Below the pieces are notes generated by a model that searched no databases, was not told the origin of the DNA, and worked only from the letters and a program-made list of their open reading frames with translations. 64,000 nt of DNA from positions 1 through 64,000 of the forward strand of contig LNEO01000206.1 in the NCBI GenBank assembly GCA_001465015.1, read 5' to 3'. The DNA comes from Deltaproteobacteria bacterium Ga0077539. GTDB lineage: Bacteria; Myxococcota_A; Polyangia; Polyangiales; Ga0077539. Position numbers and translations under genes: made by a program. Of this stretch, positions 21,038 to 31,734 are shown in pieces (the stretch's first letter is position 1; every line of letters starts with the position of its first letter).

Positions 21038-22851
21038 TCACTCGGACGGCGAACGGACACGGGACGAGAGCGCGCGGCGAGGCGACCGGGCGAGCGGCGC
21101 TGGTCGCGCTGATCGGCGCGGTCGCGGCGCTGGGTGGAGGATGCTCGAACCCGCCCACACAATCAAGTGACGCGGCGAATGACGGGTCCAACGACGTGAC
21201 GGCCGACGCGCCGGCCGCGGCGGACGCGAGCGAGGGCGGCTCGGGCGAGGACAGCGCCACCGACGCGGGCCCGTCGATGACCAACATCAACGTCGCGCCC
21301 GGCGCCAACCCTCGGACGATCGAAGAGGGCGTCGTTCGCGAGGTCGTTCGCGTGGCCGTCCCTGCTCCTGCTGCGAACATGGCACCGGGCCGCGCGGCGA
21401 CGCCGACGCCCGCGGATCTCAACTTCGTACAGGTGCTGCAGTATCGCTCCGCTGGCACGGCGCCGGGGACGGCGCGGGCGGTGATCGTGGCGGTGCCTGG
21501 ATTTCTCGGCGGCGCCGGCTCGTTCGACGGCCTCGCGCGAGCGCTGGTGAAGCGCGCTGCGCGCGAAGGCCAGCGCGTCGAAGTGTGGGCGATCGATCGA
21601 CGGTCGAACCTGCTCGAAGACCTCCGCGGCATGGACGCCGCTGACGCGATGAACGACCCCGAGCTCGCCCGCGCGTACTACGTCTCGCGTTCGATCTCGG
21701 TCAACGGGCAGCGCTTCGGCGGGTATCTCGCGCCGAACGCCGAGTCGATCGCATACATGTCCGAGTGGGGATTGCCGACGCTGGTCAATGACATTCGCGT
21801 CGTGATCGAGCGCGCGAGCATGGGCCGAGCGCGGGTCGTTCTCGCGGGGCACTCGCTCGGAGCGAGCATCGCCGAGGCGTACGCGGCCTGGCGGTTCAAC
21901 GACGACGTGCGCGGGTTCGACACGATCGCGGGGCTCGCGATCATCGACGGCGTCGCCGGGGGCGCGAGCCTCACCGAGCAGCAGTACTACATGGGCGGAA
22001 CGCCGGCGCCCGGCGGCCTCGGCGTGTCGCAGGGCGTGACCGCGCTGCGCGCTGGCGGGCCGTACTACTTCGCGCTGCCGCTGCTCGGCGTGCAGGCGGT
22101 GGTGATCGCTGAAATCGTCGCCCGTCGCGTGCTCGTCGCGCCGGACGCGGTCGTCAGCGACGTTCGCCGTGACGAGCTGTTTCGCACGCTGCTCAACGTC
22201 GACCGACTCCCTCCGATGAGCAACGCGGCGGCGTTTGGCTTCGCGTTCGACGGCGACTCCTGCGCGCTGTCGTTCGCCGCGATGAACGTCGGGACGCCGA
22301 TCGGTCCTACGCGACGCGCCATGAGCTTGCTCGGCCCGATGATCACCGTTCCGTCGGACCCGATGATGACCTACCGCTGGACCGACGCGCCGATGAGCTC
22401 GCCCGCGGAGGTGACGCCTCTTCGGTCCGCAGCGCTCGGCTGGGCGGCGACGCCGAGCAACTTCGCGGAGTGGTACTTTCCTGCGCGGCTTCCGCTCGAC
22501 GTCTCGGCGTTGGGCGAGATGCGGATCGCAGAGGGGTCCTTCGCGTTTCGCGAGGGAATTCGCGCGACGCTCGGAGGTCAGGTCGACGTTCCAGTGCTCG
22601 CGATCGGATCGGGCCTCGTCACGAGCCGCGCTCGCTTCGACGCGATGGTCTCGCGGCTCTCGCCGACGGTCGGGGACGGGCGGCCCAACGCCGGAGCGAC
22701 GCGGATGGACGAGCGAGGATTTCGTGTGCTGATGTTGCCAACGCAGACGCACATCGACCCGATCATGGCGCCCGAGTCGACGATGCCAGGCAACCCGGTC
22801 CCGCAGGCGCTCTTCGAGTTTGCGCGGGACAACACCGCGCCGCGGATTTGA
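21034..22851 (+). CDS. Lipoprotein with alpha/beta hydrolase domain
   Basis: 'GAVAALGGGCSN' lipobox, D/A/G-rich linker, 'VIVAVPGFLGGAGSFDGLARAL', 'VVLAGHSLGASIAEAYA'. Confidence 0.75.
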   Translation: MITRTANGHGTRARGEATGRAALVALIGAVAALGGGCSNPPTQSSDAANDGSNDVTADAPAAADASEGGSGEDSATDAGPSMTNINVAPGANPRTIEEGVVREVVRVAVPAPAANMAPGRAATPTPADLNFVQVLQYRSAGTAPGTARAVIVAVPGFLGGAGSFDGLARALVKRAAREGQRVEVWAIDRRSNLLEDLRGMDAADAMNDPELARAYYVSRSISVNGQRFGGYLAPNAESIAYMSEWGLPTLVNDIRVVIERASMGRARVVLAGHSLGASIAEAYAAWRFNDDVRGFDTIAGLAIIDGVAGGASLTEQQYYMGGTPAPGGLGVSQGVTALRAGGPYYFALPLLGVQAVVIAEIVARRVLVAPDAVVSDVRRDELFRTLLNVDRLPPMSNAAAFGFAFDGDSCALSFAAMNVGTPIGPTRRAMSLLGPMITVPSDPMMTYRWTDAPMSSPAEVTPLRSAALGWAATPSNFAEWYFPARLPLDVSALGEMRIAEGSFAFREGIRATLGGQVDVPVLAIGSGLVTSRARFDAMVSRLSPTVGDGRPNAGATRMDERGFRVLMLPTQTHIDPIMAPESTMPGNPVPQALFEFARDNTAPRI

Positions 22852-23936
22852 TGGGTCGCTCGCGCTCCGAGGCGACTCGAGCCTCCGCGACGCTCTCCGC
22901 CGCGGTCTTCGCGGTCTTCGCGAGCGCTGGGTGCTACGAGCTGCGGCAAGCGGGAGGGCAGCTCGACATGTTCGTGCGGCGACGGGCGCTCTCGTCGCTC
23001 GTCGACGACCCGTCGCTCACCGCCGAGCAGCGCGATCGGCTGCGGGTCGTGTGGTACGCGCGGGACTTTGCGCTGCGCGAGCTCGGGCTGTCGGCGAGCG
23101 AGAGCTACACGTCCGTCGTGATGCTCTCGCGACCGGCGGTGAGCTACGTCGTGGCCGCGTCGCCGCCCGATCGGATCCAGTCGTATCGGTGGTGCTTTCC
23201 CTTCGCGGGGTGCCTCCCGTACATCGGCTACTTCGATCGCAGGGACGCCGTGCGCGAGCGCGATCGGCTTCGGAGAAGCGGATACGACACGTACCTTCGC
23301 GGCGTGGACGCATACAGCCTGGGCGGCTGGTTTCCGGACCCTGTGTACTCGCCGATGCTCGAGCGGTCGCGCGGCGGCGTGGCCAACACGGTGATCCACG
23401 AGCTCACGCACGGAACGCTGTTCGTCGCCTCGGAGGCTCGCTTCAACGAGAGCCTCGCGACGTACGTCGGCGATCGAGGCGCTCTATTGTTTCTCGCGCA
23501 GCGATACGGTGAGCGCTCGAGCACGTACCGAGAGGCGCTCGCGCTCGAGCGGGACGCCGAGCGGTGGGAGGGCTTTCTGCGCGCGCTGGCAGCGCGGCTG
23601 CAGCGCGTATACGCGAGCGGCGCGAGCCGCGAAGAGAAGCTGCGTCAGAAGGAGTCGATCCTCCGCGAGGCGCGCGAGGCGTTCGAGCGGCTCCCGTTCG
23701 AGACGCGGCAGTATCGCGTGCGCGCGGGCAGGCTCGAGATGAACAACGCGGTGCTCTCGAACTTCGTGACGTACTACGGCGATCAGGCGTTGATCGACGA
23801 GGCGTTTACCGCGTTTGGCGGCTCTCTTCGGGACTTCATTCAGTTCTTGAAGCGAGAGGTCGCGCCGCAGCGAAGGCCGTCGCAGTGGCTCGCAGAGTGG
23901 ACGAGCGCGAGGCGGCGTCGAGGGGCAGCGCGATGA
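22851..23936 (+). CDS. Putative aminopeptidase (PF10023-like), lipoprotein
   Basis: 'ASAGCYELRQAGGQLDMFVRRR' and HExxH-type 'VIHELTHGTLFV...FNESLATYVGDRG'. Confidence 0.8.
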   Translation: MGRSRSEATRASATLSAAVFAVFASAGCYELRQAGGQLDMFVRRRALSSLVDDPSLTAEQRDRLRVVWYARDFALRELGLSASESYTSVVMLSRPAVSYVVAASPPDRIQSYRWCFPFAGCLPYIGYFDRRDAVRERDRLRRSGYDTYLRGVDAYSLGGWFPDPVYSPMLERSRGGVANTVIHELTHGTLFVASEARFNESLATYVGDRGALLFLAQRYGERSSTYREALALERDAERWEGFLRALAARLQRVYASGASREEKLRQKESILREAREAFERLPFETRQYRVRAGRLEMNNAVLSNFVTYYGDQALIDEAFTAFGGSLRDFIQFLKREVAPQRRPSQWLAEWTSARRRRGAAR

Positions 23937-25888
23937 GAGAGTCATCCGACGCGCTCGCGACGCTGGAGCGGCTCGAGCGCGCGGGCGACAAGCCGCTCGA
24001 CGCCACGGGGCTCGCAGACGCGCTCGCGCTGAGGGACCCGGCGCTCTCTCGCGCGCTCGTGCGGGCGTGCGCGCAGGACGGCGCCCGCGCGGCGCGTCCG
24101 TCCGCGGTTCGCGCGAGGATCCGCGCGCTCGACGCCGGCACGAGCGATGGGCGGCTCGATTTCGTGTTCACTTTGTTCGACCGCGACGGCGGCGGAACGA
24201 TTTCTCCCGAGGAGTTCTCGGCGATGATCGAGGGGGCCCTCGCGGGCTCGCGCCTCGTCGTCGCGCGCGGCTGGCTCGACGCGATGACCAGGGCTGTCTT
24301 CGCGAGCGCCGACACCAACGACGATCGAGTGCTCTCGCTCGAGGAGTTTCGGCGCTTCGTCGCGTCCGACGCCGGGCTCTCGCGGCTGCTCTCGCAGCCC
24401 ATCTCCTCGATGCTCTCTGCGCGGCGGCGGGAGAAGCGCGACGTCGCGCGAAGTCCCCTTCGCGAGCGGGCCGCGCAGTGGGCGTACGAGCAGGGCGCTG
24501 GCGGCGTGGCGGCGGTGCTCGCGTACGGGCTCGTCACGGCCTTTGCCTTCGCGCTCGCGGCGCTCGAGTATCGCGCCCGCGGCGCGAACACGTGGGTTCA
24601 GCTCGCGCGCGGCTGCGGCCGCGTCATCGACGTGCACCTCGTGCTGGTGCTGCTCTTTGTCGCGCGGCGCACGCTCACGGCGCTGCGACGCACGTGGCTC
24701 GGCGCGAAGATCCCCGTGGACGACGCGATCGCAGCGCACCGCGCGGTGGCGTGGACCATGCTGGTGTTCTCGCTCGGGCACGCCGCGGCGCACTGCGCGA
24801 ACTACGCTTCGCGCGGCGCGCTCGGGACCGTGTGGTTCGCGAGCGTCGCGGCGGCGACGGGGCTGGCGCTGCTCGCGGTGTTCTTCGTGATGGCGTTCTT
24901 CGCCCGCGCGAGCGTGCGTCGCTCGGGCAACTTCGAGCGCTTCGCGCGGGCGCACAAGCTCGCGTACGTGTTCTACGGGCTGTGCCTCGTCCATTCGCCC
25001 AACGTGTGGAAGTACATCGTTCCTGTCTTGATTTTGTGGGCTATCGAGCGCTTGTGGCGCGCGCGCGGGGTCGTCCGGACGCGCGCCCTGTGGATCGAGC
25101 CGCTTCCGTCGGGCGTCACGCGGCTCGAGGTCGAGGCCCCGCCCGGCTGGAAGCACCGCGCTGGCGACTACGTCTTCTTGAAGATCGCGTCGCTCGCGAA
25201 GGGCGAGTGGCATCCGTTTACGATCTCGAGCGCGCCCGAGACCAAGGGGGTCTTCACGGTGCACGTGCGCACCGCGGGAAACTGGACCTCGGCGCTCCAC
25301 AGTCTCGCGCGAAGCCGCGCGTCGGGGGCCGCGCCTGCGCAGTTCTCCCTCGAGGTGGACGGCCCGTTCGGCGCGCCGACGTCCGAGCTGTTCGACGCGA
25401 AGGTCCCCGTGTTGATCGGCGCGGGCATCGGCGTCACGCCGTTCGCCGCAGTCCTCGAGAGCCTGCGGCTGCGCGCGAAGAAGGGCCTCGCGTCGCCGGA
25501 TCGAGTCTATTTCTTCTGGGTGCTTCGAGAGCAGGAGTCGTTCGAGTGGTTCGCCGAACGGCTGTGCGCGATCGAGGCCGAGGACCAAGAGGCGCGTCGC
25601 TTCGTGCTGAAAGTGTTCGTCACTGGCGCCAACGTGACCGATGGCTCGGGCCCGTGGCTCGACGCTGCGCTCGCCACGCTGCACGCAAAGGTCGGCCGCG
25701 ATCCGCTCACGGGGCTATCTCGTCGCACGGGGCTCGGCTCGCCGGACTGGAAGCGAGAGCTGTCAGCGATCGCAGAGGAGCACCTGCAGGACGTCAGGGT
25801 GTTCTTCTGCGGCCCCGAGGGTTTGGGAGAGACGCTGAGCAAGACCTGCGCGGAGTCCGGGATCCGCTTCTGCCAAGAGCATTTTTGA
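23933..25888 (+). CDS. EF-hand NADPH oxidase (NOX5/Rboh-like)
   Basis: EF-hands 'FDRDGGGTISPEEF' and 'ADTNDDRVLSLEEF'; bis-heme His pairs spaced 14 ('HRAVAWTMLVFSLGH') and 13 ('HKLAYVFYGLCLVH'); FAD 'HPFTISSAPE'; NADPH 'IGAGIGVTPFAAVLESL'; C-term 'VFFCGPEGLGETLSKTC'. Confidence 0.9.
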   Translation: MRESSDALATLERLERAGDKPLDATGLADALALRDPALSRALVRACAQDGARAARPSAVRARIRALDAGTSDGRLDFVFTLFDRDGGGTISPEEFSAMIEGALAGSRLVVARGWLDAMTRAVFASADTNDDRVLSLEEFRRFVASDAGLSRLLSQPISSMLSARRREKRDVARSPLRERAAQWAYEQGAGGVAAVLAYGLVTAFAFALAALEYRARGANTWVQLARGCGRVIDVHLVLVLLFVARRTLTALRRTWLGAKIPVDDAIAAHRAVAWTMLVFSLGHAAAHCANYASRGALGTVWFASVAAATGLALLAVFFVMAFFARASVRRSGNFERFARAHKLAYVFYGLCLVHSPNVWKYIVPVLILWAIERLWRARGVVRTRALWIEPLPSGVTRLEVEAPPGWKHRAGDYVFLKIASLAKGEWHPFTISSAPETKGVFTVHVRTAGNWTSALHSLARSRASGAAPAQFSLEVDGPFGAPTSELFDAKVPVLIGAGIGVTPFAAVLESLRLRAKKGLASPDRVYFFWVLREQESFEWFAERLCAIEAEDQEARRFVLKVFVTGANVTDGSGPWLDAALATLHAKVGRDPLTGLSRRTGLGSPDWKRELSAIAEEHLQDVRVFFCGPEGLGETLSKTCAESGIRFCQEHF

Positions 25889-30098: not shown

Positions 30099-30339
30099 TG
30101 AAGGATTCCTTTGGGATCGAGCGGAGTGCGGGTCGGGCGCTCTGTTTATCCTAACCTAACTGTGGGCTGACGGCGCTTCGAGCACGCGACGTGCGGCTCA
30201 TCCAACACCCCTCAGGAGCGCCGCGAGGCGTCCCTACCCCCCAGCGCTTCAGGGACGTCTTCGAGGGGGATCTGTGTCTCGAAGGGCTGACGACAGACTG
30301 CCTGTTTTCCCCGGTGGGCATGGTAGCTTGTGGCCTTCC

Positions 30340-31734
30340 GTGCTCCAAGCGTGCGCTCATTGCAAAGCCATCCTGAATGAAGGGGCGAAGTTCTGTTCGC
30401 AATGCGGGACACCACTCGCTCCGAGCGCTTCGTCGCCGAGCGCGCTCGTCGACGGGCGCTATCGCCCGATCCGCGAGATCGGCCGAGGTTCGATGGGGCG
30501 CGTGATCGAAGCGGAGGACGTCAACCTCGGTCGTCGTGTGGCGCTCAAGCTGCTCAACGCCAACAAGACGACCATGCTCAACGCCGACAGCCTTCGCCAC
30601 GAAGCGAGCCTCGTCGCGTCGATTCGTCATCCGAGCGTGGTCACGGTGTACTCATACGGCGTTCACGACGGTGCGCCGTTCATCACGATGGAGCTGGTCG
30701 AAGGCACGAACCTCCAGTCCGTCATCGACGAGCACTCCGCGCACAACTCCCGCGTCCCGCTCGGTCGCGCGTGGACGATCATTCAACGCATCGGCGAAGG
30801 GCTGCAGGCGGCGCACGAGGCCGGCGTCGTTCACCGCGACGTCAAGCCGTCGAACGTCATGATCGAGAACCGCTCCGGGCGTCCCGTGCTGATTGATTTC
30901 GGCATCGCCGTCCGCGGACGACAAGGCGGCACGGAGATCGCCGGGACACCACAATTCATGGCGCCCGAGGATTTCTTTGGTGTCGACGAGACCATCGGCC
31001 CGACGTCCGATCACTACGCCTTCGCGTCGACGGTGTACGAGCTGTTCTCGGGGCGTCCCGCGTTCGACGAGCTGCCGTTGCCGCAGCTCGTCCAGATGAA
31101 GAGCCGCGGCGCGTATACTCCGTTCGCCAGCATCGACTCGACGCTCGGTCCGCTCGACGCCGTGATGTCGAAGGCGCTGTCCGGCGCGATGTCCGATCGC
31201 TTCACGTCGATTCGCGATTTCGTGGCCGCGCTCGAAGGGGCCCTTCGCACCATCGAGCAGTCTCGCATCACGCTCGATCGCGTGCAGAGGACCTCGGTGC
31301 CGCAGGCGGACGTCTTGCAGATCCTCGCGATCGACGACGACGACGCGTTTCGCAAGCTCGCGATGCGCGCAGCGCAGATCGCGTTCTTCGGAAAGAAGGC
31401 CAACACTCGCGGCACCGCGACCGGCGACGAGGCGCTCGAGAGCACTCCGCGCGCGCCGGACCTGTTGATGCTCGACTTCGACCTGCCTGGGCTCGACGGG
31501 ATCGAGACGCTCACCCGCCTTCGCAACCGTCCCAACGGCGACAAGATGCGCGTCGTGGTCGTGAGCGGGCGCGCGGGCGAGCGCGAGCGATGGCGCTTCG
31601 GCGTCCTCGGCGTTCAGGACTTTCTGAAGAAGCCAGTCGAGTTCGGCATGATGGTTCAGGTCCTCTCCGACCTCGCGAAGGCGCAGGGGTGGATCAGTGA
31701 CGTCCCGATGTCCGCCGAGAACTCCGAAGGCTGA
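30340..31734 (+). CDS. Zinc-ribbon + Ser/Thr protein kinase + response-regulator receiver fusion
   Basis: 'CAHCKAILNEGAKFCSQCG'; kinase 'IGRGSMGRV', 'VALKLL', 'VVHRDVKPSNVMI', 'IDFGIA', 'GTPQFMAPE'; REC 'ILAIDDDD', 'LLMLDFDLPGLDG', 'VVVVSG', 'FLKKPV'. GTG start at 30340 or 30274. Confidence 0.85.
   Translation: MLQACAHCKAILNEGAKFCSQCGTPLAPSASSPSALVDGRYRPIREIGRGSMGRVIEAEDVNLGRRVALKLLNANKTTMLNADSLRHEASLVASIRHPSVVTVYSYGVHDGAPFITMELVEGTNLQSVIDEHSAHNSRVPLGRAWTIIQRIGEGLQAAHEAGVVHRDVKPSNVMIENRSGRPVLIDFGIAVRGRQGGTEIAGTPQFMAPEDFFGVDETIGPTSDHYAFASTVYELFSGRPAFDELPLPQLVQMKSRGAYTPFASIDSTLGPLDAVMSKALSGAMSDRFTSIRDFVAALEGALRTIEQSRITLDRVQRTSVPQADVLQILAIDDDDAFRKLAMRAAQIAFFGKKANTRGTATGDEALESTPRAPDLLMLDFDLPGLDGIETLTRLRNRPNGDKMRVVVVSGRAGERERWRFGVLGVQDFLKKPVEFGMMVQVLSDLAKAQGWISDVPMSAENSEG

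Follow-up and report, generated by a model that had tools for sequence, protein, structure and literature searches.

The window analyzed here, a 64,000-nucleotide stretch from the myxobacterium Deltaproteobacteria bacterium Ga0077539 (contig LNEO01000206.1), contains a forward-strand gene (23933..25888) that, judged from its sequence and from structural modeling, probably codes for a single-chain transmembrane NADPH oxidase of the NOX5 type that would be switched on by Ca2+ and would produce superoxide. This reading is based on the Pfam domains of the protein, its match to human NOX5, its signature and O2-site residues, its conserved aspartates, the AF2 model and Foldseek search, its position in a tree and the lack of a cytochrome neighbour. 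In the mechanism that we propose, cytosolic NADPH would reduce FAD, from which electrons would pass singly through two stacked b-haems liganded by H269, H283, H341 and H354, and the outer haem, close to H287, R226 and W359 on the periplasmic side, would pass them to O2 to form superoxide. Binding of Ca2+ to the retained EF3-EF4 pair would fold the C-lobe and dock it on the dehydrogenase domain in the D570/D590 region, thereby turning electron flow on. The superoxide product, the Ca2+ switch and the membrane orientation are what we infer from these features, as is the physiological role, which is perhaps extracellular redox signalling or an attack on neighbouring cells.

The 651-residue open reading frame, supported by Pfam, phmmer, AF2 and Foldseek, begins with an ATG at 23933, its final residue ends at 25885 and its stop codon ends at 25888. 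A GTG at 23564 would allow a longer frame; homologs begin near the ATG at 23933, which overlaps the stop of the upstream gene. This upstream gene (22470..23936, forward strand, as listed; its real start may be further in) codes for a putative PF10023 aminopeptidase with a HELTH motif, and the 4-nt overlap (ATGA) between its stop and the NOX start indicates that both genes are likely co-translated. The overlap is retained as GTGA at the nearest same-genus locus (L066), which also shares the upstream aminopeptidase and a downstream Reg_prop propeller protein, neither of which is shared with L064. Reading of the locus gave no functional partner or clue for NOX among the neighbouring genes, and a promoter and terminator scan was uninformative. 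Across the 9.7-Mb assembly of the genome, Ferric_reduct matches the NOX gene alone. Elsewhere in the window, positions 30274-31734 code for a protein that joins a zinc ribbon and a Ser/Thr protein kinase to a response-regulator receiver domain.

The protein matches EF-hand_1 (2.8e-9, in two stretches), Ferric_reduct (2.8e-12), FAD_binding_8 (2.8e-15) and NAD_binding_6 (3.3e-22), all above the Pfam gathering cut-off and far beyond chance. Together with four haem histidines, the latter three domains constitute the core of the NOX family. The six-helix ferric-reductase transmembrane domain spans residues 176-379 (24458..25069) as judged from AF2 helices, with the Pfam match covering residues 234-350. 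It is followed by the FAD-binding motif EWHPFTISSAPE (25205..25240) and by the NADPH-binding motifs GAGIGVTPF (25418..25444, glycine motif) and VFFCGP (25799..25816), the first two of these being also covered by Pfam. HPFTISSAPE, GAGIGVTPF, VFFCGP and a C-terminal Phe, as listed in an earlier note on this DNA, are all present. Within the family, a phmmer search of PDB sequences returned human NOX5 first (1.3e-89, covering EF-hands and core), followed by the csNOX5 dehydrogenase domain, DUOX1 and NOX2, with bit scores of 304 for human NOX5, 190 for DUOX1 and 178 for NOX2. The AF2 model, built from a 28-row alignment (mean pLDDT 87.5, pTM 0.82), gave the same picture in Foldseek, where human NOX5 (8u87, 8.6e-37) was the top match, followed by DUOX1, NOX2 and csNOX5, with SpNOX far lower. 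The closest neighbour in both sequence and fold is therefore NOX5 and not DUOX or NOX1-4, where the proteins compared were NOX5, DUOX1 and NOX2, with no RBOH core. Pfam also detected no N-terminal peroxidase-like domain of the DUOX kind in the 651 residues, and no N-terminal NADPH_Ox domain (PF08414), the extra domain by which plant RBOH differs from the window protein. The NOX5-like identity that the earlier note had proposed is thus backed by sequence scores and predicted fold, as well as by the signature residues and the tree described below.

Comparison with known systems is informative in this regard. Human NOX5 (PDB 8u7y, 8u85-8u87), the best overall match in sequence and fold, differs from the window protein in having four Ca2+ sites, a Lys in place of Arg at NOX2 position 54 and longer insertions in the NADPH lobe. 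The csNOX5 protein of Cylindrospermum stagnale (PDB 5o0x, 5o0t) has the same EF-hand region, six-helix ferric-reductase domain, FAD and NADPH lobes and regulatory aspartates, with 35-38% identity in the dehydrogenase domain; however, cyanobacterial proteins of this type keep the EF2, EF3 and EF4 loops while the window protein lacks EF1 and EF2 ligands. SpNOX of Streptococcus pneumoniae shares the bacterial NOX fold (Foldseek 3.8e-12) at only 15-16% identity, and unlike the window protein it has no EF-hands, is constitutive and lacks the canonical O2 site (PMC11564096).

The haem ligands align with those of NOX2. Specifically, TM3 (24737..24793) contains H269 and H283 (NOX2 H101 and H115) along with the O2-site histidine H287 (NOX2 H119), and TM5 (24953..24994) contains H341 and H354 (NOX2 H209 and H222), so that the His spacings of 14 and 13 pointed out in the earlier note do correspond to the NOX2 pairs. 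Alignment also places R226 (24608..24610) at NOX2 R54, and this residue together with H287 and W359 (25007..25009) makes up the expected O2-site set. In the csNOX5 crystal structure the R226 and W359 positions reportedly line the O2 cavity along with the His119 equivalent. Note that a same-genus protein (L064/L108) has Val where the O2-site Trp is expected. His101, His119, Thr178 and Gly179 (NOX2 numbering) have been proposed as marks that distinguish oxidases from metalloreductases (PMC3591440), and all four are found in the window protein, the latter two as Thr309-Gly310 (24857..24862). Ferric and metal reductases (FRE) are marked by absence of His119 and Thr178, both of which the window protein has.

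The regulatory region is reduced relative to that of human NOX5. The earlier note had described two EF-hand loops and there are indeed two sound ones, but alignment indicates that these are what is left of a four-EF domain in which the first two are degenerate. EF1 (RAGDKPLDATGL, residues 16-27, 23978..24013) aligns with the calpain-like EF1 of human NOX5, and EF2 (AQDGARAARPSA, residues 47-58, 24071..24106) has lost its Ca2+ ligands. Pfam and alignment predict Ca2+-binding loops at EF3 (DRDGGGTISPEE, residues 83-94, 24179..24214) and EF4 (DTNDDRVLSLEE, residues 127-138, 24311..24346), the latter with Arg replacing Gly at loop position 6. The genus relatives and the sister proteins L055 and L060 have likewise lost the EF1 and EF2 ligands, while both the window protein and its relatives from the genus retain the EF3 and EF4 ligands at positions 1, 3 and 12. 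Four sound EF-hands are found in most of the other Myxococcota homologs, and the NOX5 arrangement of one calpain-like and three canonical EF-hands, which the window protein lacks, is present in many of them. Because the window protein has only two sound loops, we describe it as NOX5-type but reduced in its EF region. The most economical interpretation of its two-EF state is a reduction from the four-EF NOX5 layout that converged on the layout of RBOH, the EF-hands of which align with NOX5 EF3 and EF4, the pair that the window protein retains (PMC9421330). A different reduction, loss of EF4 ligands, is observed in four Pseudomonadota proteins (L063, L069, L068 and L074). At the other end of the proposed switch, Ca2+ causes the NOX5 C-lobe (EF3-EF4) to fold and to attach to the dehydrogenase domain, and activation of csNOX5 by Ca2+ requires D611 and D631 (PMC7317449). 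The regulatory EF-binding region of the window protein (25634..25705) has both conserved aspartates, D590 being aligned by column and D570 being placed by its spacing of 20 residues, which equals that between D611 and D631.

Whether this reduced domain still responds to Ca2+ leads to an alternative reading, in which the NOX5-type oxidase makes superoxide constitutively or under control of its own expression, with the EF-hands kept as structural remnants. Removing the N-lobe from csNOX5 eliminates most Ca2+ activation, lowering Ca2+-stimulated activity from 0.0159 to 0.0035 (PMC7317449). Given this effect, the degenerate EF1 and EF2 shared across the genus and with L055 and L060, and the EF4 loop that lacks its glycine, calcium control of the window enzyme may be weak or lost. 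However, retention of the EF3 and EF4 ligands while EF1 and EF2 drifted suggests selection on the C-lobe, and plant RBOH and the NOX5 of some flatworms and tardigrades likewise lack N-lobe (EF1-EF2) sites (PMC9421330). We consequently regard decayed calcium control as a secondary and rather unlikely reading. Still more doubtful is the reading that the protein only looks like NOX5 and works as a transmembrane ferric (metal) reductase, or as an electron exporter of another kind, whose chief acceptor is not O2. Sequence cannot fix the acceptor with certainty, cytochromes adjoin some bacterial relatives, and SpNOX reduces cytochrome c directly and at about the same rate with or without O2 (PMC11564096). 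Nevertheless, the full NOX signature and the O2-site residues are present, the cytochrome of the relatives has no homolog in the window genome, and the tree separates the protein from reductase-like proteins.

This tree contains 63 rows and 468 core columns, with human NOX5, NOX2 and DUOX1 as the only human cores and no RBOH core. The EF-hand NOX proteins, human NOX2 and DUOX1 and two EF-less Myxococcota proteins split with 100/100 support from the reductase-like rows, which comprise actinobacterial and patescibacterial proteins and no fungal or plant metalloreductases. A phylogeny of this kind had been suggested as a check against ferric reductases, and within that sampling the window protein does fall apart from them. 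One side of another branch, not strongly supported (95/51), comprises 25 Myxococcota rows including the window protein; the window genus forms a clade (100/100) on a long stem (0.8), with L055 and L060 as sisters (96/96). These results also bear on whether the gene is a eukaryotic contaminant or was acquired very recently from a eukaryote, an explanation for which there is precedent in that cyanobacterial NOX5 has been explained by transfer from eukaryotes (PMC9421330, PMC3591440). The window gene is nonetheless an uninterrupted frame among bacterial genes on a 97-kb contig, the same gene order occurs on a 422-kb contig of a same-genus genome, and the protein falls within the Myxococcota group. 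Contamination is rejected by the shared gene order and the tree, and we give this explanation as a whole very little credence. A transfer far back in time, from or to eukaryotes, may have taken place. Constraining the three human proteins together cost 2.6 log units (p-AU 0.121), so their monophyly is not rejected. With this result and with weak deep forks, we do not read the tree as grouping the window protein with NOX5 to the exclusion of DUOX and NOX1-4 and, human cores numbering only three, we assign no donor and recipient between bacteria and eukaryotes.

The NOX5-type oxidase of the window belongs to a family with wider bacterial distribution than expected. Cyanobacterial NOX5 sequences are described as very few and likely of eukaryotic origin (PMC9421330, PMC5676040, PMC11564096), and the earlier statement that prokaryotic examples are few agrees with two of these reports (PMC9421330, PMC5676040), but it does not fit the dozens of bacterial relatives found here. 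Homologs occur in 26 of 184 genomes of the host's order and in 11 of 379 genomes sampled phylum-wide. Among the phylum-wide homologs, L009 and L010 (genomes G226 and G153, family f24 of the same phylum) are NOX-like proteins that lack EF-hands, have Tyr in the place of His119 and HPFS instead of HPFT, and sit on a very long branch. A scan of genome contigs, which returned no relatives with the window protein as a single query and about 60 with an alignment query, yielded full-length relatives labelled Myxococcota, Cyanobacteriota, Pseudomonadota, Spirochaetota, Neomarinimicrobiota and Planctomycetota, with EF-hand relatives beyond Myxococcota in all of the latter five. One relative carries the label Mesoflavibacter (Bacteroidota) and clusters with a Rhodospirillaceae protein; its assembly may be mislabelled. 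At L070/L007 (G297) a break in the NOX5 gene separates its EF-hand part from its membrane domain, and this may reflect a pseudogene or an assembly fault. Our literature search found nothing on myxobacterial NOX5, which is no proof of absence.

Comparison of these relatives revealed a split at the O2 site. In 19 of the 51 bacterial rows scored, Phe, Leu, Val or Tyr stands in the place of His119, and each of the 19 has a gene for a c-type cytochrome no more than 3 kb from NOX, whereas none of the 32 rows that keep His119 has one beside it. For example, the His119-less Myxococcota loci (L013-L017, L019-L026, L028 and L065) have a cytochrome directly downstream with five to eight CxxCH motifs (two where the contig ends early). 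The other His119-less loci (L048, L050; L054, L059) include two Neomarinimicrobiota with upstream cytochromes of ten plus four CxxCH motifs and two Alphaproteobacteria with a divergent single-haem cytochrome. The pattern recurred in held-out loci, with a cytochrome beside all four evaluable His119-less cases (L018, L044, L070 and L071) and beside none of three that have His119. A homolog of the L014 cytochrome adjoins NOX in G067, G274 and G256, and there is none genome-wide in four genomes where NOX keeps His119 (G000, G236, G382 and G341). The tree places three origins of His119 loss with a cytochrome matched at each, a number too small for a significant sign test. Together these observations suggest that a cytochrome-coupled NOX5 branch exists, and such coupling is chemically sound since direct reduction of cytochrome c is seen in SpNOX, an enzyme without the canonical O2 site. 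The window enzyme, with His119 present and no cytochrome neighbour, is on the other side of this split, which supports O2 as its acceptor.

We thus put forward, as a proposal that could fall either way, that bacterial NOX5 is a wide family with two modes. The His119 branch, to which the window enzyme belongs, would make superoxide. The other would have lost His119 at least three times (in Myxococcota, Neomarinimicrobiota and Alphaproteobacteria) and paired with a c-type cytochrome, such that Ca2+ would gate export of NADPH electrons to a cytochrome outside the inner membrane and not to O2. The window protein is an addition to the known NOX5 kind, and the branch linked to cytochromes appears to be a new variant. 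The split between His119 and cytochrome offers a natural test of what makes a NOX use O2 or a protein as its acceptor, and the bacterial relatives provide many models for NOX5 regulation, including natural variants with C-lobe EF-hands only. Finally, NOX5-type enzymes, thought to be nearly confined to eukaryotes, have relatives in several bacterial phyla, and the Myxococcota group together with members in other phyla reopens the debate over the origin of NADPH oxidases regulated by calcium.
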